Virus record (IMG/VR): IMGVR_UViG_3300035187_000715
Coordinates: 1-20,373 of that record
Length of the DNA: 20,373 bases
Direction: 5' to 3' (one strand)
Origin: a virus
Shown here: piece after piece, positions 239-20,373 of the stretch
Layout: every line of letters starts with the position of its first letter
Numbering within the stretch: position 1 is the stretch's first letter
Notes under the pieces: model-generated
Seen by the model: only the letters and a program-made list of their open reading frames with translations
What the model was told of the DNA's origin: nothing
Database searches by the model: none
Position numbers and translations under genes: made by a program

Positions 239-363
239 CCGAGTTAATTGAATGTCCTGTTTGTGGTGAAGAGTATCCACCACTGGCTTGTAAGTGGCAA
301 TGTCCCGCCTGTGGCGAATTGGATGATGAGCCTCTTAAGATGAGGAATAATGGATCTGAATGA
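235..363 (+). CDS. 42-residue zinc-ribbon mini-protein between terminase genes
   Basis: This small open frame starts at ATG 235, overlaps the TGA of the preceding gene (ATGA), and ends at TGA 361-363, 14 bases inside the large terminase gene. It encodes 42 residues. Cysteines lie at 7, 10, 19, 23 and 26 in two CPxC-G knuckles (CPVCGE and CPACGE), which is a classic rubredoxin/zinc-ribbon spacing. The start-stop overlap upstream and the overlap with the terminase start downstream suggest translational coupling through all three genes. Such ribbons usually bind nucleic acid or stabilise a protein contact. A role in packaging is inferred from position only. The frame is short, but two Cys knuckles in so few codons make chance unlikely. 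Confidence 0.62.
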   Translation: MTELIECPVCGEEYPPLACKWQCPACGELDDEPLKMRNNGSE

Positions 364-1942
364 ACTGCTCAACGAGCGTGAGTGGCGTAAATGTAAAGGA
401 CCACAGGACGGTTCTATTGACGACCTCGTGGACGCATTTGAACACTTCTGTACCAACTATTGGTATATCAAACATCCTGAGCGAGGACGTATCCCTTTTG
501 AGATGCGTGAAGCCCAGGTTGAGACTATCCGAGCATGGCTGTCTAACCGTTACAGTGTGGTTCTAAAAGCACGTCAGATCGGGTTTTCTACTCTTGGTGC
601 TGCTTACGCTTTTTGGTTAACTTTCTTTTGGCAAGACCGTTTTGTGGTAATGTTGTCTCGTACTGAACGAGAGGCCGCTAAATTGCTACAAAAATCCAAG
701 TATGGGTTTAAGTTTATTCCTCAATGGATGAAGGAACGTGGTCCTCAGATTACATCTGATAACCAGTTAAAGATGACTTTCTCAAATGAGTCTGCGATTG
801 AATCATTGCCATCGGGCAATGATCCTGCTCGTGGTGAATCCGTGTATCTTGTTATTGTTGACGAGATGGCGTTCTTACCTAACTCTGAGGAAGCGTGGGC
901 TTCTATTGAGCCGATTGCTGACGTTGGCGGTCGTGTTATCTGTCTATCTACTGCCAACGGGTCAGGAAACTTCTTTCATCATCTTTGGACTGGCTCACAG
1001 ACAGGGGCAAACCTTTTTAAAGGTATTTTTTGGCCTTGGTCTGCTGGCGACCGTGACGAAGATTGGTATGAATCTAAATGCAAAACTATGCCTGGCTGGC
1101 AGTTGCATCAGGAATACCCTCGTACCCCTGAAGAAGCGTTTATTAAGTCAGGTAACCCTGTCTTTGATATTGATTTGCTGGATTCAATAGAAACTATTGA
1201 ACCAGCACGCGGATATTTACATACTATTTCTAAAAAGAACTGCGACTTCAGAATAGTCCCTGAAGGCGAGTTCGCTATTTGGGGATACCCTAAACCTGAA
1301 GGTGTTTATGTTGTCGGTGCTGACGTTGCTGAAGGTCTTGTACATGGCGACTATTCTACCGCACATATTATTGAGGCTAGATCGTTAGAAGTTGTAGGAC
1401 ACTGGCATGGCCATATTGAACCTGACCTTTTTGGTGATCTTCTTGCCGAAATAGGATGGTGGTATAATGGTGCTCTTGTAGGCGTAGAAAACAACAATCA
1501 CGGTTTAACTACTTTAAAGGCTTTACAACGTTATGGCTACAAGAATATTTACCGTACCCGTAGGTTGCAGCAACGTCGCCCTGAGGCGACTGAGCAGTTG
1601 GGTTGGCGTACTACGACAGCCACGAAACCTTTGGCAATTGACGAACTTTCTGCCTCTATTCGTGACTCTGAACTCGGTTTGTTTGATAGCCGCACTATTG
1701 CAGAATTAAGAACGTTTGTTCGCGACCCTAACGGCAAAATGCATGGTTCACCCCATGACGACCGCGTAATGTCCCTGGCTATTACATATCAAATGTTAAA
1801 ATATGTGTGGTTGCCTGAATATCGTGCCGAAGCCCCTATACCTAAATATAGTTTGCATTGGTTTGAAAGATTCATTATGAGCGAAGATCATGGTACAGAT
1901 CCCATACCTATCGGTGCATATAACACTAGAAGAACCATGTAA
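350..1942 (+). CDS. terL: Terminase large subunit (packaging ATPase/nuclease)
   Basis: A 530-residue motor protein that pumps DNA into the prohead and cuts the concatemer. The ATPase half shows a Walker A-like loop (KARQIGFST, residues 73-81, the deviant form common in TerL). It also has a Walker B strand ending in acidic residues (VYLVIVDEMAF, 165-175, D171/E172) and a coupling motif STANG (200-204). The RNase H-like nuclease half shows the expected acidic triad: D325 in GADVAEG, E380 in VGVENN, and D470/D471 in SPHDDRVMSLA. Length and motif order fit full-length large terminases. The ATG at 350 is preceded by GAGGA with short spacing and lies inside the end of the zinc-ribbon gene. Nothing is truncated. 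Its subfamily, and hence cos or headful packaging, was not determined. Confidence 0.97.
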   Translation: MDLNELLNEREWRKCKGPQDGSIDDLVDAFEHFCTNYWYIKHPERGRIPFEMREAQVETIRAWLSNRYSVVLKARQIGFSTLGAAYAFWLTFFWQDRFVVMLSRTEREAAKLLQKSKYGFKFIPQWMKERGPQITSDNQLKMTFSNESAIESLPSGNDPARGESVYLVIVDEMAFLPNSEEAWASIEPIADVGGRVICLSTANGSGNFFHHLWTGSQTGANLFKGIFWPWSAGDRDEDWYESKCKTMPGWQLHQEYPRTPEEAFIKSGNPVFDIDLLDSIETIEPARGYLHTISKKNCDFRIVPEGEFAIWGYPKPEGVYVVGADVAEGLVHGDYSTAHIIEARSLEVVGHWHGHIEPDLFGDLLAEIGWWYNGALVGVENNNHGLTTLKALQRYGYKNIYRTRRLQQRRPEATEQLGWRTTTATKPLAIDELSASIRDSELGLFDSRTIAELRTFVRDPNGKMHGSPHDDRVMSLAITYQMLKYVWLPEYRAEAPIPKYSLHWFERFIMSEDHGTDPIPIGAYNTRRTM

Positions 1943-2917: not shown

Positions 2918-3256
2918 ATGGCTACTATTATTAAAGAATCAACTTCAACTTTGGGTGCGTTAAATGCAAGTAGTGCTGTTGTTGATATTAGTGACGCAGA
3001 TGTTATTGCAGTACAAATTAATGGTACTTTCGTTGGAACTATGAATTTCTATGCATCATTTGATGATGTAACATATTTTCAATTTGCTTTGCACCAAAGC
3101 ACACAAACTAGTGCTACAACAGATATTGCGAACACAACAAGTACAGGGATTTGGTCAAAACCATGTGCTTCACTAAAATATTTCAAAACAATAATGAATG
3201 CGTACACTAGTGGTAGTGCGACTATGCTTGTTGTTACTTCACGGTATGGCAAGTAG
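2918..3256 (+). CDS. Small beta-rich virion-type protein, paralogue B
   Basis: A 112-residue paralogue of the preceding gene. Aligned landmarks include the MATI start, VDIS at about 22-25, VQINGTFVGT at about 31-40, WSKPC at about 80, LKYFK at about 85 and AYTSGSA at about 94. The two differ across most surface positions, so the duplication is old rather than a recent tandem copy. The protein is Thr/Ser/Ala-rich with beta-strand alternation and one conserved Cys. A ribosome binding site (AAGGGA) precedes ATG 2918. Its stop lies five bases before the portal start. The paired copies could form a hetero-oligomeric decoration or fibre. That is inference; no enzymatic motif is present. Confidence 0.75.
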   Translation: MATIIKESTSTLGALNASSAVVDISDADVIAVQINGTFVGTMNFYASFDDVTYFQFALHQSTQTSATTDIANTTSTGIWSKPCASLKYFKTIMNAYTSGSATMLVVTSRYGK

Positions 3257-5943: not shown

Positions 5944-6909
5944 ATGCCAGGTAATGCTAACTTTGACGCACTTCTATCCACAACGATTGCGAACTATCGC
6001 AAGACTCTCACTGACAACGTGTTTACGGCACGTCCTTTGACCTATCATTTGATGGACAAAGGCCGTATCCGCATGTTGAGTGGTGGAACTAAGATTGTTG
6101 AACCATTGATTTATGGTGAATCATCTACTGTTGCACCTTACAGTGGCTACGACACATTGGCTTTGACTCCTCAAGAAGGAATGTCGGCTGCTGAATACGA
6201 TTGGAAGCAGTACGCTGTTTCTATCGCCATCAGTGGTATTGAAGAAGCCAAGAACAATGGTGAGCAGGCTATCCTTAACCTTCTTGAAGCCAAGATTATG
6301 CAGGCTGAAGAATCAATGAAGGAAGGCTTTAACCGTATGTTCTTCGGTAACGGTACTGACACTCTTGGTGCTGGTGGTACTGACAGCGGTAAGTCTTGGA
6401 ACGGTCTTGGTAACTTGGTTGAATCAGGTAACACTGTTGGTGGGATCAACTCGGCTTCAGGTCAGAATAACGATTGGTGGCGTTCATATGAAGAGAACAC
6501 CGCTGGTGCTTTGACCCTTGCTCAGATGACAACCGCTTACAACACTGTTAGTGTTGGTAACGATCATCCTGACATGGTTCTTACTACTCAGACATTGTTT
6601 GAAAAGTATGAGTCGTTGCTTCAACCGCAACTTCGCTACACCGACACTAAGACTGCTGATGCAGGCTTCCAAAACCTTTTGTTCAAGGCTGCTCCTGTTG
6701 CTTATGACGTTCATTGCACCTCGGGTGTTATGTACTTCTTGAACAGCAAGTACATCAGCTTGGTTGGTCACTCAGACAAGTGGTTCGCTAATACCGAATT
6801 CCTTCGTCCTGAGAACATGGATGCTCGCTATGCGCTCATCTTGTGCTACGGTAACCTTACGATTCGTAACCGCGAAAAGCAGGGTAAACTTACGGCTAAG
6901 ACTGCCTGA
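5944..6909 (+). CDS. Major capsid protein
   Basis: A 321-residue protein, the expected size for an HK97-fold shell subunit without a large delta domain. It has an N-terminal arm (about 1-50), then a hydrophobic beta-rich region starting at GGTKIVEPLIYGES, which resembles the E-loop of related capsids. A long acidic spine helix follows (about residues 99-128, GIEEAKNNGEQAIL to AEESMKEGFNR). After it come Gly/Ser-rich and A-domain-like parts including TTQTLFEKYESLLQPQLRY, and the C-terminus ends in a strand, ALILCYGNLTIRNREK. A strong ribosome binding site (AAAGGA at 5932-5937, spacing six) and frequent AAC, AAG, GGT and CGT codons fit very high expression. It follows the scaffold and is followed directly by a terminator. 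Fold-level assignment is by position, size and pattern rather than by a specific family match. Confidence 0.92.
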   Translation: MPGNANFDALLSTTIANYRKTLTDNVFTARPLTYHLMDKGRIRMLSGGTKIVEPLIYGESSTVAPYSGYDTLALTPQEGMSAAEYDWKQYAVSIAISGIEEAKNNGEQAILNLLEAKIMQAEESMKEGFNRMFFGNGTDTLGAGGTDSGKSWNGLGNLVESGNTVGGINSASGQNNDWWRSYEENTAGALTLAQMTTAYNTVSVGNDHPDMVLTTQTLFEKYESLLQPQLRYTDTKTADAGFQNLLFKAAPVAYDVHCTSGVMYFLNSKYISLVGHSDKWFANTEFLRPENMDARYALILCYGNLTIRNREKQGKLTAKTA

Positions 6910-9748: not shown

Positions 9749-10722
9749 TGGCTACTGCTGCTGTTACTTATACGTTCGCTAATGGTACTAATGCTGATGG
9801 TACTCAAGTTAACTCTAACTTTACGAGTGTTGTAAACTTTTTGAATACCGAGGTTGTTCAGCGTGACGCAAGTGTTGCGTTCACGGCTATCCCTAATTTG
9901 CCTGCTACCGATCCTACGACAGCCAATCAGGCTGTGCGTAAATCTTATGTGGATAACTATACGCCTGCTGGTGTGATCACTCAGTATGGTGGTTCTAGTG
10001 CGCCGACAGGTTGGTTGTTGTGTCAGGGTCAGGCTATTTCTCGTACTAATACTTTGTATACTCGTTTGTTTACTGCTATTAGTACTACGTATGGTGCTGG
10101 TGATGGTACGACTACTTTTAATGTTCCTAACTTGCAGGGTCGTATTCCTGTTGGTAGGGATAGTACTCAGACCGAGTTTGATGCGTTGGCTGAAACTGGT
10201 GGTTCTAAGACAAGTACGTTGATTACTGCTAACTTGCCTTCTCACCAACATGGTGTTGGTACTATTGTTCCTAATACTATTGCTGACCATTTACATAGTG
10301 TCGGAACTATTCTACCTAATACTATTGCTGACCATTCACATGGTGTTGGTACTATTCTGCCTAACACTATTGCTGATCATGTTCATGCTCATACTTTTGC
10401 TATTGCGGATCATTCATTATCACGCTCTTTGACTAGTGGTACTACTTCTACTACATATGAAAAAGCAGGAATTGGTAATGGTACTCCAAGTACATTGGCT
10501 CATACATTTACTGGGTCAATCACTGCAGGTGGTGGACACACTCACACGATGACTGGTTCTACTGCTACTGGTGGAGGGCATACCCACACCATGACTGGTT
10601 CTACTGCTGTTGGCGGAGGACACGCACATACAATGAGTGGTTCTACTGCTCTTGAAGGTAGTGGCACAGCGTTCAGTAATCTCGCTCCTTATATTGTGGT
10701 GAACTACATTATTAAACTATGA
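9748..10722 (+). CDS. Tail collar/needle protein with His-rich repeats
   Basis: A 324-residue protein with a phage tail collar domain at about residues 72-165. This holds a GVITQYGGSSAPTGWLLCQG motif, then the YTRLFTAISTTYGAGDGTTT stretch and VPNLQGRIPVGRD. These are the signature of T4 gp12-type short fibres. Two repeat arrays follow, at residues 168-212 (15-residue units) and 261-302 (14-residue units), both rich in HxH. The C-terminus (FSNLAPYIVVNYIIKL) matches the usual end of collar proteins. In T4 gp12 such HxH clusters bind metal along a trimeric needle. A ribosome binding site (AAGGAAGG) precedes ATG 9748. The N-terminal 70 residues (NSNFTSVVNFLNTEV and on) probably attach to the virion. 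Host-receptor binding is inferred. Confidence 0.88.
   Translation: MATAAVTYTFANGTNADGTQVNSNFTSVVNFLNTEVVQRDASVAFTAIPNLPATDPTTANQAVRKSYVDNYTPAGVITQYGGSSAPTGWLLCQGQAISRTNTLYTRLFTAISTTYGAGDGTTTFNVPNLQGRIPVGRDSTQTEFDALAETGGSKTSTLITANLPSHQHGVGTIVPNTIADHLHSVGTILPNTIADHSHGVGTILPNTIADHVHAHTFAIADHSLSRSLTSGTTSTTYEKAGIGNGTPSTLAHTFTGSITAGGGHTHTMTGSTATGGGHTHTMTGSTAVGGGHAHTMSGSTALEGSGTAFSNLAPYIVVNYIIKL
10249..10383 (+). repeat. Three 45-bp tandem units in the collar gene
   Basis: Three in-frame 15-codon units of the form HGVGTILPNTIADHS. Each begins with His and carries IADH near its end. Units 2 and 3 differ mainly at synonymous or conservative positions. A truncated fourth unit (HAHTFAIADHS) follows. 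Confidence 0.9.
10528..10653 (+). repeat. Three 42-bp tandem units with HTH/HAH motifs in the collar gene
   Basis: Three in-frame 14-codon units of the form GGGHTHTMTGSTAT. The third has HAH and a Ser for Thr. The HxH pairs recur every 14 residues, as expected for stacked metal sites on a trimeric needle. Confidence 0.9.
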
Positions 10723-13124: not shown

Positions 13125-13321
13125 GATATCTAGAATTGAACGCCGACGGCGTTGTCGTGAATGTTTGTGTTTGGGATGGTTCTACACCGTATTCGCCCGC
13201 TGGTGTTGCACAACTCCTACCGTGTGCAGATAACCTTGGTGTGTCATTCGGTTGGGCACTTATTGATGGTGTTTGGCAAGCACCGATAGTTGAAGAACAA
13301 GAAATATCGGAAGGTAACTAG
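13121..13321 (+). CDS. Small tail-fibre-associated protein
   Basis: A 66-residue protein starting at ATG 13121, which overlaps the fibre stop (ATGA); an upstream in-frame ATG at 13109 would add four residues inside the fibre gene. The opening (RYLELNADGVVVNVCVWDGSTPY) resembles the N-terminal beta motif of small fibre accessory or assembly proteins, which begin with a strand-turn-strand followed by WDG. A WALIDGVWQAP segment near the middle and an acidic tail (EEQEISEGN) complete it. Direct coupling to the fibre gene supports a fibre chaperone or fibre-bound role. That is inference, because the family similarity is short. Confidence 0.68.
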   Translation: MRYLELNADGVVVNVCVWDGSTPYSPAGVAQLLPCADNLGVSFGWALIDGVWQAPIVEEQEISEGN

Positions 13322-13324
13322 GAG
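13320..13324 (+). promoter_or_regulatory. Ribosome binding site selecting ATG 13332
   Basis: AGGAG lies seven bases before ATG 13332 and begins on the last base of the previous stop codon. It supports this start over one 42 bases upstream inside the previous gene. The 12-base AGGAGAAACAAA block is identical to the one in front of the scaffold gene. Confidence 0.8.
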
Positions 13325-13331
13325 AAACAAA

Positions 13332-13559
13332 ATGCAATTTAGAACACTTGACCCAGTTGAAGGTAAGAAGCAGGCTTTGGCTGCTCGTATGAATCAGTTG
13401 GAACAAGAATACCTTAACAACGAAACTGCTTTAATTGTTGCTCAAAGTTTACCTGAGGGCGAAGCCAAGGATGCTCAAATAGCACAGTTTTCCAGCAACC
13501 TTGTTGTTATTGAATCTGCTCATGGGGCTATTGTCACTGAACATGATTCGGTTGCCTGA
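13332..13559 (+). CDS. Small coiled-coil protein, function unknown
   Basis: A 75-residue, mostly helical protein. An N-terminal beta-like MQFRTLDPVEG is followed by a long helix (KKQALAARMNQLEQEYLNNETALIVAQSL), a short break (PEGEAKDA) and a second helix (QIAQFSSNLVVIESAHGAIV). This is a helical hairpin or short coiled coil. A strong AGGAG site fixes the ATG start. It sits between the fibre accessory gene and the putative internal proteins, so it could be a small virion or assembly protein. I recognise no family. Confidence 0.72.
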   Translation: MQFRTLDPVEGKKQALAARMNQLEQEYLNNETALIVAQSLPEGEAKDAQIAQFSSNLVVIESAHGAIVTEHDSVA

Positions 13560-13609: not shown

Positions 13610-14041
13610 ATGGCTTACACTGATATAGGTTTAAACTACGAACCTCAAAAGCGCAACGCTGCTATGCAGCGTGACGCTTCTTTAGCCATGAACGCGTTTA
13701 GTCGTCTACTGTCGCAGCAACGTGGTTCTCGTGACATTATGGCTACTGACAAGGCTGCGTCTAAAGGTCTTGAGGGTTTTGGTGCTGGTTATGGTAGGCG
13801 TGGTTTACGTAATAGCGGTATTTTTAGAGGTGCTGCTTCTGATTATTCGCAGAATTGGATGAACCAACGTAATGATCAGTTGGATGCTTTGCGTCAGCAG
13901 TTGGCTACTTATGATTTGCAGGATACTCAGTCGCAGGCTGGGTATCAGAATACTTTGGCTGATATTGAATTAGCGAAGCAGCGTGACATTTTGTCTACGG
14001 CTGCTTCTTTACAGGGCTTGCGCCCATTTTTAGGAGCGTGA
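13610..14041 (+). CDS. Putative small internal virion protein
   Basis: A 143-residue helical, Gln/Arg/Ala-rich protein (RNAAMQRDASLAMNAFSRLL, NQRNDQLDALRQQLATYDLQ, LADIELAKQRDIL) with a Gly/Arg patch in the middle (GFGAGYGRRGLRNSG). A ribosome binding site-like AAAGGTGA precedes ATG 13610. It is the first of four consecutive large or helical genes downstream of the fibre, as T7 gene 14 heads the ejection-protein block. The next gene follows after three bases, with its own AGGAG inside the end of this one. No enzymatic motif is seen. Assignment as an internal protein is by position and composition and is tentative. Confidence 0.62.
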   Translation: MAYTDIGLNYEPQKRNAAMQRDASLAMNAFSRLLSQQRGSRDIMATDKAASKGLEGFGAGYGRRGLRNSGIFRGAASDYSQNWMNQRNDQLDALRQQLATYDLQDTQSQAGYQNTLADIELAKQRDILSTAASLQGLRPFLGA

Positions 14042-14044
14042 GTT

Positions 14045-15517
14045 ATGGCTACCGTTGATCAGATGGAACGTGAACGTAAAAGAACTGTTGGGAAACCACC
14101 TGCTACAACTTCCCCTAAGAAAACGACTGGTTCGGTGCAACCCGATTTTAGTGCTGCTGTCCAATCTGTTGCTACGCCTGCTCGTGTTGCAGCGGATTTA
14201 TCATGGATGAAAGATCCCGCATTTGCTGGGTTTGTTCAAGAAGGTACAGCGCAAGGATTAGCAGGAAATAATTTAGCCACTTGGGTTAAAAACCGCGCTT
14301 TGGCTGGTGCTGACTTCAGTGGTTTTAATCAACCTAAACCGCCTACTGGTGGTGGCGGTGGGACTATGAGTACACAAAACGCTAACGCTCCCCTTATGTC
14401 GGCGTTAACTCAATATGCAAATAATATGGGTTCTAACACTGGGATGAACTCTATTAACGATTTGTATGGCAAATTGTTGGCTAGCACTCAGAGTAGTGGG
14501 CAATCTCAGCAGGACTCTATTAGCAATTTGTATAACCAGTTGTTGACTGACACTCGTGGTAGTGGGCAGTCTCAACAGGATGCTATTAAAAATTTGTATA
14601 GTCAACTGTTGACTGATACTGGCACTCGTGGACAATCTCAACAGGACGCTATTAACAAGTTTTATGGTGGTGCTGAAAGTCAACTTGGTGGTTTAAACGC
14701 TGACGCTTTGGCTATGTTGCAGAATCAGTATAATCAGATTAGTGGCGAGATTGGTACTCAGACTGACGCTGGTCGTGCAACTATTGATGAGAGCACCCAG
14801 CGCGCTTTAGCGGCGCTTGGTGGTCAAGCAAACCCTTATGCTAATTTGCAGATGGCTAGTGCTCCTGCTGTTACTGATCCTATGTCTGCTTACACCCAGG
14901 CTGTTGGTGGTTCTCAAGGTGGCATTGATGCTTTGCAACAGATGTTGCAGTCTCAAAATGCGGCGACAGGTGGGGGGTTCAGTAATCTTGCTCAGTTGTT
15001 GGGTGCTTCGAATCAGGCGGCTCAGCAGTCTCGTATTGGTGATGTGAATGTGGCTCGTGCTGGTGCTCAGCAGGATTTGGCGGCTAATCAGCGTGCTGCA
15101 GCGTTGCGTGCGTTACAGCAGTCTCAGCAGGCTCAGCAGGCTCAGCAGGGTACGTATGCTCAGCAGTTGCTTGGTTTGGGTCAGAATCGTTTGCAAGCCA
15201 ATTTGGGTGCTGAACAAAACATGAACGATTTGTTGAATCAGTTGCAACAATCACAGTTGCAAGCCAATTTGGGTTCTCAACAGAATACTAGTAATTTGTT
15301 GAGTCAGTTGGCTCAGTCGCAACTGCAAGCCAATTTGGGTAGTCAGCAGAATACTGGCAATTTGTTAAGTCAGTTGCAACAGTCGCAGTTGCAATCTCAG
15401 TTAGGTCAACAGCAGAATACTCAGGGTCGTCAGGATACTTTGATGCAACAGTTGTTGGGTCTTGCTGGTCAGGGTATTGATGTGTCGCAGATTATGGCTC
15501 TTCTTGGAGGACAATAA
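14045..15517 (+). CDS. Gln-rich repeat protein, putative internal virion/ejection protein
   Basis: A 490-residue, very Gln/Asn/Leu/Ala-rich protein. The N-terminus is basic and Pro/Thr-rich and contains a WMKDPAFAGFVQEGTAQGL helix. Residues 140-205 are three 22-residue units (LYxxLLxxT...GQSQQD.I). The middle is Ala/Gly/Gln-rich, with AQQAQQGTYAQQLL-type runs. Residues 381 to about 460 are a second array of 22-residue units (SQLQANLGSQQNT.NLLSQLxQ). Both arrays predict amphipathic helices. AGGAG lies eight bases before ATG 14045. The end overlaps the next gene by one base (TAATG). The composition suits a long helical virion protein, and position suggests ejection into the cell, but there is no recognised domain. 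Confidence 0.7.
   Translation: MATVDQMERERKRTVGKPPATTSPKKTTGSVQPDFSAAVQSVATPARVAADLSWMKDPAFAGFVQEGTAQGLAGNNLATWVKNRALAGADFSGFNQPKPPTGGGGGTMSTQNANAPLMSALTQYANNMGSNTGMNSINDLYGKLLASTQSSGQSQQDSISNLYNQLLTDTRGSGQSQQDAIKNLYSQLLTDTGTRGQSQQDAINKFYGGAESQLGGLNADALAMLQNQYNQISGEIGTQTDAGRATIDESTQRALAALGGQANPYANLQMASAPAVTDPMSAYTQAVGGSQGGIDALQQMLQSQNAATGGGFSNLAQLLGASNQAAQQSRIGDVNVARAGAQQDLAANQRAAALRALQQSQQAQQAQQGTYAQQLLGLGQNRLQANLGAEQNMNDLLNQLQQSQLQANLGSQQNTSNLLSQLAQSQLQANLGSQQNTGNLLSQLQQSQLQSQLGQQQNTQGRQDTLMQQLLGLAGQGIDVSQIMALLGGQ
14462..14659 (+). repeat. Three 66-bp units in the Gln-rich gene (array 1)
   Basis: Three consecutive 22-codon units beginning LYGKLL, LYNQLL and LYSQLL, each ending with GQSQQD(S/A)I plus two residues. 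Bases such as CAGGA and TTTGTAT recur in register, so the duplication is visible at DNA level as well. Confidence 0.88.
15185..15424 (+). repeat. Four 66-bp units in the Gln-rich gene (array 2)
   Basis: Three full 22-codon units plus a partial fourth. The first three share CAAGCCAATTTGGGT in register, and the fourth diverges (SQLQSQLGQQQNTQ). Unit length equals that of array 1, although the sequences differ. Confidence 0.88.
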
Positions 15518-16779
15518 TGGCCCCGAAAATTAATGATCCTTTGGCTTTGATTCAATATTTGCAGAATAGTGGTGGTGGTGGGAGCAACCCTCCGTCTGCT
15601 TCGTCGCAACTAAACTATACTCAGGACATTTTGTCGTCGCTGTTTAATCCGCAGTTTGCTGCGGCTTATGGGATGTTTGATCCTGTTGGTTTGGCTCCTG
15701 CTCCTTTTGATTTTGCGACACCAGTTTTGACTGGTGCGCTAAATAGTGCTACTCCTGTTTGGCGTGAGATTGCTCAACAGATCTCTGATGGGACTATTGA
15801 TCGTCAGAACGCTATTAGTGCTGTTGCTGAAACTTTGGGTGTTGACGAGTATTCTACTGGTGCTGGTTTGAATCTTAAGAGCATTGAGACTGATATTGAT
15901 TCAATGTTTAATGAGATTGGTGATAAGCAGAACGCGGCTATTAAGTATCAATCTGATATGCGTGAAGCGGAACAAGGTAATATTTATGGCAAGGCTGGTT
16001 TGCGCCAACCTTACGAACAGTACACTTTGCAGGACGCTCCGTTTAGTCAGAATGTTTTTGATCAACAGTCTGAGTTAGAGAAGATGATTCAGAGTTTGTC
16101 TTTGCGCGGCGACAAGCAGAGGCAGGCCATTAATACTGATACTCAGGCTATTTATACGAAGATGATGGAGCAGGATCAGGCTGCTCAGGATGCTATCCCT
16201 GACAGGTTCATGCCTGAGTCGTGGGCTGATGCTAAGGCTTTGGCTGAGACTCTTGGTGTTGATGAGGGGTGGATGAAAGATATTTACGATAAGAGTTTTG
16301 GTCTTGGCACTGTTCAGGTTTATGATCAGGAAAAACAGAAGTATGTTAATAAGACTTTCACTCCTGCGGAAAAGCAGGAGGCGTTTAAGAACTTTATTCG
16401 TAATGAGGTTAATAAGGGTACTTCGGGTACGGGTTCTCCAATAGGTGACTGGTTGTCAGGTAATGCTGACGAACGTGGTGTGAAGGTTTCTAATTATCTT
16501 AAGGCAGGCAAACCTCTTATTAGTGGTGCTCGTAAAGAGGACGCCGACCAGGCGGGTCGTCGTGGTATGGCTATGTCTATGGAGGCGGCTAAGAAATCTA
16601 AAGCCAAGAACACTGATCGTTATCTTGCGGCTGATCGTTTTGCTAAAGAGGCTAAGGCTAGAGAACTTGATATTCAGAAACTGGCTGAATTGCAGAACCT
16701 TATTGATGCTGGCAGGACGCCTTTGCAGGATCAGTTGACCCAGCGTGCGGCTCTGTTTGGTTTAGGTAACAACCTCTAG
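15517..16779 (+). CDS. Putative internal virion protein, helical, function unknown
   Basis: A 420-residue protein. The N-terminus is short and helical (DPLALIQYLQNSGGGG), then a Gly/Pro/Ser linker. A region with two LGVDE motifs follows (near residues 108 and 246), which may mark an internal duplication: AETLGVDEYSTG and AETLGVDEGWMK. The C-terminal half is charged and helical (KQEAFKNFIRNEVNKG, AAKKSKAKNTDRYLAADRFAKEAKARELDI). GGAGG lies six bases before ATG 15517, which overlaps the previous stop. It is followed eight bases later by the giant gene. I do not recognise it. Position between two putative ejection proteins suggests a virion-internal or tail-associated role. Confidence 0.7.
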   Translation: MAPKINDPLALIQYLQNSGGGGSNPPSASSQLNYTQDILSSLFNPQFAAAYGMFDPVGLAPAPFDFATPVLTGALNSATPVWREIAQQISDGTIDRQNAISAVAETLGVDEYSTGAGLNLKSIETDIDSMFNEIGDKQNAAIKYQSDMREAEQGNIYGKAGLRQPYEQYTLQDAPFSQNVFDQQSELEKMIQSLSLRGDKQRQAINTDTQAIYTKMMEQDQAAQDAIPDRFMPESWADAKALAETLGVDEGWMKDIYDKSFGLGTVQVYDQEKQKYVNKTFTPAEKQEAFKNFIRNEVNKGTSGTGSPIGDWLSGNADERGVKVSNYLKAGKPLISGARKEDADQAGRRGMAMSMEAAKKSKAKNTDRYLAADRFAKEAKARELDIQKLAELQNLIDAGRTPLQDQLTQRAALFGLGNNL

Positions 16780-16787
16780 TATTAGTA

Positions 16788-19700
16788 ATGGCTGTTTATA
16801 ACCCCCGTTTAGATATTGCTCGCGCTGCTCAAGAAAAGGCTAAGTCGTCGTCTGTACAGACGCTTCAAAGTGTTTTAAAACAGCAGACGATGGACAGTAC
16901 ACTTAAGAAGGACTATACGGCTTTAGGTGGGGCTAACACTGCTCCTGAAATTGGTGGCTGGAAAGGTCTCATTACAGATATCTTGGAGTCGCCTGTAGGT
17001 AAGGCTGTCTCTAAGGCTGGAGAGATTATCTCTTTGCCTGGTCGTGCTGTCACTTCTACGGTGATGGAGTTAAAGGATGCTTTAGATAACGATCCTAATA
17101 CTGTTGCTTCTTGGAATGATTTTACTAAGCAGGTTGCTGATCCTAGTTTTGGTTTCGGTAAAGTTATTGGTGACGCTACTGGCAGTGCTTGGGGTAATCG
17201 TATTCTTGGTTTTGCTGGCGACGTATTACTTGATCCTTTAACTTATGTGACGTTGGGTGCTGGTCGTATTTCGGGTGGCATGAAACTTCTTGACGAGGCT
17301 GGTGCTGTTGTTAAGGGTGCTAAAGGTATCTCTATTGCTGGCAAGGAAGGCCGTTTGGCTTTCGCTACTCGTCTAGCCGAAATTGGTGCACCTAATGATA
17401 TTGTTACTAGGGCTGCTCGTTATGGTCGTGTCGCTGTTAAAGACGCCGACCTTCTTGCGAAGGCTGGCGTTAACCGCGCTGGTCTATATTTTATGGGTCG
17501 TCGTGTTGCTGGAACTACTCGCATTGGTGAGGGTTTAGAACGTGGTCTAGTTGGTATGCGTACTTGGTCGGGCGACCATTTGTTTAAGCGTGCTGCAGAA
17601 CTATTTGATGCTACTGATATGAACGCTGCTCGTAAAGCATTAGCACGTGGCACAGCCACTGCTGATGAGGGCGTTGACTATCTGCACATGGTTATTTCAC
17701 GGAACTCGGAACGTGCTACTGCGGCTAGTGCAAAGCGTGAAGCACAGTTGTTGCAACGACAGTTTGTTGGTTCTGTCAGGGCTGAGGATTTGCGTGTTTC
17801 TCGTAAGACTGCTTACACGTTGTTAGACAATACTGATGCTGCTGCTAAGGCTGGTACTGCTACTGCTGATGAACGTGTTGCTGGTCCTGTCGTAGGATTC
17901 TTGAAGCAGTTGCATGACAATATTGATGCAGCCGCTAAGGCTGTTGACCCTGACGCTCCTGTTGGAAAAGTTGTTAACTACTTCCCTCACTTGCCTTCAG
18001 ATCAGGCTTACCGTTTCATGACGAACACAGAGAACCCTACTGCTGTTAAGTTGGCTAATCTGTTGTACAACCCTTTGACTGAAGAGGGTGCGTTCAAGTC
18101 TCGTATGGCCGCTGGTGACGACTTCTTTGGTTATATCTTGAAGCAGGAAGATATTGATGGTGGTATCACTCGTCTGAATAAGATTGCTCGTGATGAGGGC
18201 AAACTTACTTTTGATTTCTTTGAAACTGATCTACCTACTGTGCTTGATCGTTATGTTGATATGTATTCTGCTCAGATGGGTAAGATTGCTCGTAAGAAAT
18301 ATCTTTCAGAGAAAGGCGTTTTCAAACGTCTTGAGGAACGTCTGCTAATCAACGATGAGGCTGTTGATGGTGCAACCAAAGCGTTGAAGTTGGCTATTGC
18401 TGATCGTGGTAAGGCTATGAAGAATGGTTCAAAGGCTTTGAATGATTTGAACAATTCTTTTGATGAGTTGTTCACTAGAACTAATGGTGCACGTGAAAGC
18501 GTTTTCCAGGCACAGCAAACTTTGACTACGCTCATTGATGAGTTGTCGTTGCATGATAAGACGTTGAGTCGTATTCTTGGTGATCGTCCTGAATTGTTGA
18601 ATGCTCTTGAGGGTCAATATGGTCGTCTTGTTAAGGAACTTAAAGAACTTAAAGAACAATCAGGTATCTTTGAAAACATTGATGGCGTTGTTCGTCCTCG
18701 TTTGGCTGAAGCAGCCAAAGAGTTAGAACAACTGCAGAAGGTTGAAGCGCGTTTAGTTGAGTTTGGTAACGTTGTTCAGAACCGTTTTGATGACATTGTT
18801 AATGGTGTAGAGATCCCTAACCTTAAACAGTTTTCTGAGAGAGTGCGTACCGCGTTGTTCGGTGATGCGCGTGTTGCTGGTGGCAAACGACAGGCTGTGT
18901 TTGGTGTTGAGCCTGAGTCAACTCCTCTTAATCCTAAGTTGTGGGAAGAACTTAAAGTTAAAGTTTTGAAGGGTCGCACTGGTGGTGCTAGTGGGAAGAT
19001 GACTCCTGAAAAGGAATCGTTGTTGGCTCAACGTTATGCTCAGGCTGGTGGCGAATGGTCTAAGGTTGATGTAAGTAAGTTGGGTGCTGTTGATCAGCGT
19101 TGGTGGATGCAAGCCAATATTCACAACGACATCTCTGCGCGTGAAGTTGCTGAGATGATGGGTGCAGATAATCTTGTTGAAGCAATTTATCGTGGTGTCC
19201 GCGACGAGGCTTCCTTGAAGGAAACTCGTCTTGCGGCTATGGCGATTCTTACTTTGCATGATGGTTCTATTTCTTTGCCTGCTGGTGTGGCGGATGATCT
19301 TAAGAGTATTTTGGCTGAGGCCGCTGATGTAGATAACTTCTATATGAAGTTGGCTAAATCTACTACGGACAAGTTTGGCCGTATGCGCTTAGAAACCATT
19401 TATGATAACTATCTGAGTGTTGAGAACAAAGTTGTTGATAGCGTTCGCGAGTATGCGGCTGCTATTAAATTGAACAATCTTTTGTTTAAGGATGGTATTC
19501 CTGATGCCGACCAGCGTTTTGGTGCTGATCTTCTAAAAGATTTCTTAGACAGACCTGAGTATGATTCTTTGTTGAAGTATTTTGATCTTGAAAAAGATCT
19601 TACTTTTGGTGAGATCGCTAAGGCGATTGATTCAATCCGTGTTGATGCGATGACACGTGAGTTTCAGATTGTTGCACCTGTCAAGGGTATTGGTATTACT

Positions 19701-20373
19701 GATACTGATGAAGTTCTTAAAACGATTAACATGGAAGATTATGTTAATGCTTTGAAGTTGCGCGATACTGGTGGTAGTCGTATCCATAGAGGCGAAGCGA
19801 CGTTAGATGAGATAGAAGAATGGATTACAGAAAATATTACTGGTGAAGCCGCTGTTGCTGGCGTGCGTCCTCCTAGTCGTATTTTTACTGCTGACGATAT
19901 AGTTGATCTTCCTAATGTCAATGCTTTGTTTGGTATGAACAAACTTGTGCCAGGCATTACACGTACGATCAAGAACCGTAAACTTGATGATCGTATTGTT
20001 AAATGGATTACTGGTGCTGCTGACGCTAAGCCTTATGTTTCAATGAATAATGATTTGCGTGTTGTGCAAGGTATTGTTCAAGAGAAACTTTCTATACTTG
20101 CCAAGAAGTTGAAAGATGTTCCTGAGTCTGACTGGTCTGAGGTTGACCGTTTACTTTTGGACAATATGACTCTTGCTTCGAGACAACTTGATGACGCGAT
20201 TAAGGATATTAGTAATAGGATTTCGGGTGTTGTTCGTCCTTCAGCACCACGAGGTAATTTGCCTCGTGCTCGTGCAGTAACTTTTAAAGAAGAAGTACTT
20301 CCTAATAATTCTTTGCGTGCAGAAATAGAATCTTTACGCAATCAACTATATAGCCAATATGGTATTCAGCGTG
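16788..20373 (+). CDS. Giant virion-type protein, at least 1195 residues, 3' end outside window
   Basis: An unbroken frame from ATG 16788 to the right edge, 1195 codons with no stop, so its true end is beyond the window. It opens MAVYNPRLDIARAAQEKAK. A Gly/hydrophobic segment with GFAGDVLLDPLTYVTLGAG (about 141-159) follows, resembling membrane-adjacent segments in large podovirus ejection proteins. A NYFPHLP motif lies at 397-403, and predicted coiled coils at about 550-662 include KELKELKEQ. The C-terminal visible half is helical and charged, with VRPPSRIFTADDIVDLPNVNALFG. I saw no lysozyme or transglycosylase motif. The closest analogue by position and size is T7 gp16, the largest core protein; a polyvalent-type protein is an alternative. 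The start has no Shine-Dalgarno sequence, with a 13-base ATTAGTAATGGCT match to the start context at 13610. Confidence 0.85.
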   Translation, partial: MAVYNPRLDIARAAQEKAKSSSVQTLQSVLKQQTMDSTLKKDYTALGGANTAPEIGGWKGLITDILESPVGKAVSKAGEIISLPGRAVTSTVMELKDALDNDPNTVASWNDFTKQVADPSFGFGKVIGDATGSAWGNRILGFAGDVLLDPLTYVTLGAGRISGGMKLLDEAGAVVKGAKGISIAGKEGRLAFATRLAEIGAPNDIVTRAARYGRVAVKDADLLAKAGVNRAGLYFMGRRVAGTTRIGEGLERGLVGMRTWSGDHLFKRAAELFDATDMNAARKALARGTATADEGVDYLHMVISRNSERATAASAKREAQLLQRQFVGSVRAEDLRVSRKTAYTLLDNTDAAAKAGTATADERVAGPVVGFLKQLHDNIDAAAKAVDPDAPVGKVVNYFPHLPSDQAYRFMTNTENPTAVKLANLLYNPLTEEGAFKSRMAAGDDFFGYILKQEDIDGGITRLNKIARDEGKLTFDFFETDLPTVLDRYVDMYSAQMGKIARKKYLSEKGVFKRLEERLLINDEAVDGATKALKLAIADRGKAMKNGSKALNDLNNSFDELFTRTNGARESVFQAQQTLTTLIDELSLHDKTLSRILGDRPELLNALEGQYGRLVKELKELKEQSGIFENIDGVVRPRLAEAAKELEQLQKVEARLVEFGNVVQNRFDDIVNGVEIPNLKQFSERVRTALFGDARVAGGKRQAVFGVEPESTPLNPKLWEELKVKVLKGRTGGASGKMTPEKESLLAQRYAQAGGEWSKVDVSKLGAVDQRWWMQANIHNDISAREVAEMMGADNLVEAIYRGVRDEASLKETRLAAMAILTLHDGSISLPAGVADDLKSILAEAADVDNFYMKLAKSTTDKFGRMRLETIYDNYLSVENKVVDSVREYAAAIKLNNLLFKDGIPDADQRFGADLLKDFLDRPEYDSLLKYFDLEKDLTFGEIAKAIDSIRVDAMTREFQIVAPVKGIGITDTDEVLKTINMEDYVNALKLRDTGGSRIHRGEATLDEIEEWITENITGEAAVAGVRPPSRIFTADDIVDLPNVNALFGMNKLVPGITRTIKNRKLDDRIVKWITGAADAKPYVSMNNDLRVVQGIVQEKLSILAKKLKDVPESDWSEVDRLLLDNMTLASRQLDDAIKDISNRISGVVRPSAPRGNLPRARAVTFKEEVLPNNSLRAEIESLRNQLYSQYGIQR

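Follow-up and report, generated by a model that had tools for sequence, protein, structure and literature searches.

The window, a stretch of 20,373 nucleotides (positions 1 to 20,373 of the IMG/VR record IMGVR_UViG_3300035187_000715, here G000), closes with the first 1195 codons of a giant gene whose product is, at a probability of roughly 0.85, a large ejection (internal virion) protein of a short-tailed phage. The best reading of its layout is one like that of the N4 virion RNA polymerase (vRNAP), without a recognisable polymerase and without the transglycosylase of T7 gp16. Proteins of this kind are known, but the family appears to be new: its constant plan of two blocks, how large it is among uncultured viruses, and a probable link between its C-terminal block (C-block) and the N4 vRNAP seem to be undescribed in the literature searched, most subscription journals excepted.

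An open frame with a close relative

16788..20373, + strand: giant gene, first 1195 codons; ATG start at 16788, 3' end beyond the record

The frame has no stop codon from the ATG at 16788 to the last complete codon at 20372, where the record ends, and the chance of 1195 stop-free codons is ~5e-31 at the base composition of the window. The closest relative, the giant of another contig (L002), is 82% identical over all 1195 residues and is stop-free to at least 2298 aa, where that contig also ends. The single frame running off the edge, as first described from the letters, is confirmed by this relative and, because L002 is still open at 2298 aa, the window would hold less than half of the giant gene if the lengths are alike. 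Codon positions 1, 2, and 3 differ between the two genes at 166, 94, and 386 sites, respectively, with a dN of 0.113 and a dS of 0.639 (dN/dS 0.18), indicating purifying selection. The third-position bias and the low dN/dS point to a real conserved protein that is free of frameshifts within the part common to L002, and the intact frame of the preliminary description therefore holds throughout the 1195 residues.

Extension of the gene through other contigs was unsuccessful, as the C-terminal half of the L002 giant used as a query matched only itself and three contigs with the neighbouring 420-aa gene (L149, L150, and L151) stop early in the giant or before it. The five contigs recovered from this group of phages all break off within the giant gene or immediately ahead of it (window, 20373; L002, 16896; L149, 6413; L150, 10510; L151, 10223), which may be an assembly effect or a property of the gene.

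A family of giants with two conserved blocks

A search of IMG/VR with the conserved N-terminal region recovered 14 further loci besides L002, and comparison of these loci revealed a conserved N-terminal block (N-block), a middle whose length and sequence differ widely from one relative to another, and a conserved C-block of ~500 aa with the motifs VATPGF..RN and PFYTW.RNNLPLQ. Scanning with the C-block returned at least 576 loci in IMG/VR and one weak match only in 84,980 cellular genomes. A few isolates also have distant relatives of the giant (podovirus Jasmine, Casserole, Shocker, and DS1). Among the C-block matches listed, both blocks are present in all 28 giants that have a start and a stop (1456–2987 aa; some are near-identical records), and in each of these the C-block starts 466–526 aa before the end of the protein. 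MW202795 and Shocker, which lie outside the training sets of both profiles, also possess both blocks, and the C-block is present in Jasmine, Casserole, and DS1, likewise outside the profile training. The C-block is absent from the 2298 available residues of the L002 giant and, given its position at the very end of complete giants, the window giant is predicted to reach at least ~2,750 aa and to end in a C-block that would lie beyond residue 1195.

17019..17537, + strand: N-block, conserved N-terminal region (residues ~78–250); found in 28 of 28 complete giants
17208..17249, + strand: signature segment GFAGDVLLDPLTYV, hydrophobic (residues 141–154)
17976..17996, + strand: NYFPHLP (residues 397–403), common to a subset of relatives only

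The N-block of the window giant carries a W....GF.GD...DP motif that is near-universal among relatives, and in 13 aligned sequences G141, F142, G144, D145, D149, and P150 of the signature segment are invariant. Two landmarks had been singled out as family-like at the outset and both are real, though they differ in reach: judged from the alignment, the hydrophobic GFAGDVLLDP segment is the signature of the giant family, while NYFPHLP extends to some relatives only, with a counterpart in MW202803 (GYMPHLP) and looser ones in two further loci (L015, YLPHV; L009, YTPHI). Simple hydropathy analysis of residues 1–1195 did not reveal a strong transmembrane helix, and T7 gp16 and P22 gp16 likewise do not stand out by this measure.

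Gene order and the absence of cysteine

350..1942, + strand: terminase large subunit (context), 53% to MW202803
3262..5091, + strand: portal protein (context)
5944..6909, + strand: major capsid protein (context), 41% to podovirus MW202803
7209..9748, + strand: connector-like 230-aa and tail-like 616-aa proteins (context)
13290..13559, + strand: 89-aa cysteine-free ORF with a TTG start; module membership uncertain
13610..14041, + strand: 143-aa cysteine-free protein, candidate small ejection protein
14045..15517, + strand: 490-aa cysteine-free, glutamine-rich protein with two 66-bp tandem arrays, candidate middle ejection protein
15517..16779, + strand: 420-aa cysteine-free protein, candidate middle ejection protein

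The giant of the window follows genes for the terminase, portal, scaffold, capsid, connector-like, and tail-like proteins and stands in a block of genes without cysteine. The podovirus relatives have the order TerL-portal-scaffold-capsid-connector-tail-small-middle-giant-lysis, the giant of complete relatives being the last structural gene ahead of the lysis genes. L002, L149, and L150 carry the 420-aa gene in the corresponding position, and relatives of the 143-aa protein occur upstream of the giants in L015 and L009. The repeat arrays of the 490-aa gene (14451–14665 and 15191–15421) probably vary in copy number, since the L002 relative of the protein has 402 aa. Tandem repeats of 45 bp and 42 bp are also found in a tail-fibre-like gene (10248–10380 and 10528–10650, respectively). 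Two similar small proteins of 111 and 112 aa adjoin at 2573–2908 and 2918–3256, and their MW202803 relative sits after a carboxypeptidase (lysis-type) gene.

Neither the window giant nor the two genes preceding it encode a cysteine, and the full cysteine-free run (the 420-, 490-, 143-, and 89-aa ORFs plus the giant) has none in 2337 aa versus 23 in 4071 aa elsewhere in the window (Fisher P 3.6e-5). Across a set of complete giants there is a single cysteine in 48,702 aa, at residue 3 of a protein whose start codon is doubtful, compared to 515 in 40,849 aa (1.26%) for the other ORFs on the same contigs. The first gene upstream of the giant is cysteine-free in 23 of 24 cases and the second in 18 of 19, and the signal stops at the third (2 of 8). 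Cysteine is absent from the proven ejection proteins T7 gp15 and gp16, P22 gp7, gp20, and gp16, and N4 gp50, gp51, and gp52 (T7 gp14 has one) and present in most other virion proteins of these three phages; its absence is not specific to ejection proteins, as some scaffold and capsid proteins are also cysteine-free. The trait is on record for N4-like vRNAPs and the giants of Zobellviridae (PMC3715699, PMC2784036, PMC10747016), and published work has read it as a requirement for injection and, for the vRNAP, tied it to passage through the tail and periplasm (PMC3715699, PMC2784036).

Comparison with described phages

The only annotated-phage match to the window giant is that of Arthrobacter phage Casserole, the sister of Jasmine; electron microscopy shows Jasmine to be a podovirus with a tail of 10 nm (PMC5513430). 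The giant of these two phages (1803 aa; phrog_36598, which is also the one weak match of the window giant in PHROGs) shares the N-block (window versus Casserole, 35% over 109 aa), has a weak C-block and no cysteine, and follows cysteine-free genes as in the window, but is shorter, has a middle that is not alignable, and is annotated as hypothetical. A large ejection protein had been proposed from position, and the cysteine-free block behind the capsid, connector, and tail genes, the podovirus homologue in Jasmine, and the missing cysteine all support that assignment.

A second podovirus, ct52p938 from Manatee Spring (MW202803; 42-kb circular genome), has the gene order of the window with a related capsid and terminase. 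Its giant is 25% identical to the window giant over residues 76–490, including the GF.GD and P-H-L-P motifs, possesses the C-block, and follows two cysteine-free genes close to a lysis-type gene, though at 1312 aa it is much shorter. This giant (L004:14313-18251) is annotated as 'chromosome segregation', a label that looks wrong and most likely derives from coiled-coil similarity.

T7 gp16 is likewise the largest ejection protein of its phage, cysteine-free, and encoded after two smaller ones, and the window giant resembles it as the cysteine-free last member of consecutive candidate ejection genes. Any counterpart of the membrane-spanning helices found near the C-terminus of gp16-type proteins would lie beyond the record. 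The two proteins differ in that the window giant lacks the N-terminal lytic transglycosylase domain and has no sequence relation to T7 gp16 or P22 gp16 (profile comparisons at noise level), which agrees with the different architecture suggested at the outset; the unfinished L002 giant is already 1.7 times the length of T7 gp16. The N4 vRNAP (gp50; 3500 aa) is also a cysteine-free giant with a three-part plan, encoded beside two smaller cysteine-free ejection genes. The internal virion proteins of Zobellviridae (PA11 ORF35 and ICP2 gp6) are cysteine-free giants in a similar place (PMC10747016), but without a detectable sequence relation to the family. Microbacterium phage Akoni, a podovirus shown by electron microscopy, encodes a cysteine-free giant of 4487 aa (gp31; L112:17984-31447) that, unlike the family, is encoded ahead of the portal gene and resembles neither of the two blocks, and is possibly an independent giant ejection protein.

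Domain and structure searches

No enzyme was identified by Pfam in the 1195 residues of the window giant, in the 2298 residues of L002, or over a set of 24 giants, and the transglycosylase model SLT matched none of the giants tested, extending to L002 and the other giants the lack of a transglycosylase signature reported for the window protein. The one clear domain in the 24 giants is an FtsK gamma domain, a DNA-binding winged helix, at residues ~1648–1706 in the variable middle of the 2987-aa L064 giant. A match to MscS_porin (E 0.66) was rejected as coiled-coil noise. Solved structures gave chance matches only when searched by sequence, the AlphaFold models are too poor for a claim about the fold (N-block pLDDT 45; C-block pLDDT 57), and a Foldseek search against the PDB returned nothing. 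Profile comparisons with T7 gp14–16, P22 gp7, gp16, and gp20, N4 gp51 and gp52, the Zobellviridae giants, and Akoni gp31 detected no homology, and no relation was detected between the N-block and the N-terminal domain of the N4 vRNAP.

A probable link to the C-terminus of the N4 vRNAP

The C-block motifs reappear within the final ~330 residues of N4 gp50. When the C-block alignment, enriched with divergent members mostly from actinophages, was compared by profile with 21 schitovirus-type C-termini, the score was 43.9 (P 9.3e-5) against a maximum of 22.4–24.6 when columns or blocks were shuffled (sets of 60). With the seven divergent members as its only input, a profile aligned at the same place (41.6, P 1.4e-4; shuffle maximum, 25.0), and several residues conserved in the vRNAPs coincide with conserved residues of the C-block. 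Before the divergent members were added, the alignment gave a borderline score (25.3 against a shuffle maximum of 24.2), and the HHalign probability was 52–59%; on account of these two results the distant similarity between the family C-block and the N4 vRNAP C-terminus (~330 aa), as seen at the level of sequence, is graded probable rather than proven. A recent structural study reports that the large C-terminal subdomain of the N4 vRNAP resembles no known structure and describes the N-terminal domain of the same protein as able to enter membranes (PMC12633501).

It is conceivable, at somewhat less than even odds, that the C-block and the C-terminus of the N4 vRNAP are one ancient address or packaging module for giant injected proteins, such that the N4 vRNAP would be one case of a widespread carrier with an N-terminal membrane part, an exchangeable middle, and a C-terminal address.

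Alternative explanations

The probable C-block similarity also bears on a narrower proposal, that the giant is itself an N4-type virion RNA polymerase, injected with a middle that transcribes the early genes. Its size, the missing cysteine, and its place after two smaller cysteine-free genes would all fit, and the authors of the StenR_269 study concluded likewise from size, lack of cysteine, and helices alone (PMC10747016). However, neither L002 (2298 residues) nor any of the 24 giants matched a polymerase family, and the middles of relatives vary widely; this proposal is quite improbable. A polyvalent protein, a DarB-like combination of anti-defence domains that enters the host along with the DNA, is a somewhat better candidate but still an unlikely one. 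It draws on the FtsK gamma domain in the middle of one relative and on the best Foldseek matches of the C-block model in BFVD, giants of uncultured phages named 'Large polyvalent protein associated domain-containing' (E 2e-14); these names are taken as a hint only, and confidence in the model used as query was low (pLDDT 57). Pfam detected none of the methylase, helicase, peptidase, ART, or LPD domains in the 24 giants, and LPD38 had no match in 54 C-blocks, the LPD38 model being silent in control genomes as well.

That the giant is a tail fibre, a tape-measure, or another tail protein has very little probability. A tape-measure profile did match weakly (E 0.075), but the match was rejected as coiled-coil noise, and the PHROG labelled tail fiber that some relatives match (E 1.5e-5) is so named by annotation only. 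Among the relatives is a podovirus whose tail measures 10 nm, the searches detected no receptor-binding domain, and in the window the genes for the tail are located upstream of the giant and do encode cysteine.

Proposed role in infection and implications

From gene order, homology, the absence of cysteine, and analogy, we infer how such a protein may be packaged and ejected and what its blocks may do. Several copies of the giant would be packed in the head, accompanied by two or three smaller proteins that lack cysteine and whose genes lie immediately upstream. During infection, the giant and these partners would exit through the portal and tail before the DNA, unfolded or loosely folded, a passage during which the lack of cysteine is proposed to avoid disulfide trapping, and would reassemble as part of a conduit carrying DNA into the cell. 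The N-block has a single conserved hydrophobic stretch and could act at the membrane or the conduit, the C-block predicted beyond the window may serve packaging or docking, and the long variable middle may be a linker or cargo.

Few components of short-tailed phages are understood as poorly as their giant injected proteins, and runs of cysteine-free genes offer a simple marker for ejection modules in unannotated phage contigs. If the carrier scheme is true, the middle would be occupied by a polymerase in N4, by an FtsK gamma domain in the L064 giant, and by some unknown cargo in the phage of the window. A family with at least 576 viral loci and no Pfam entry, whose conserved C-block seems to occur in the N4 vRNAP as well, suggests a general delivery domain, which could be tested in the family members that exist in culture.
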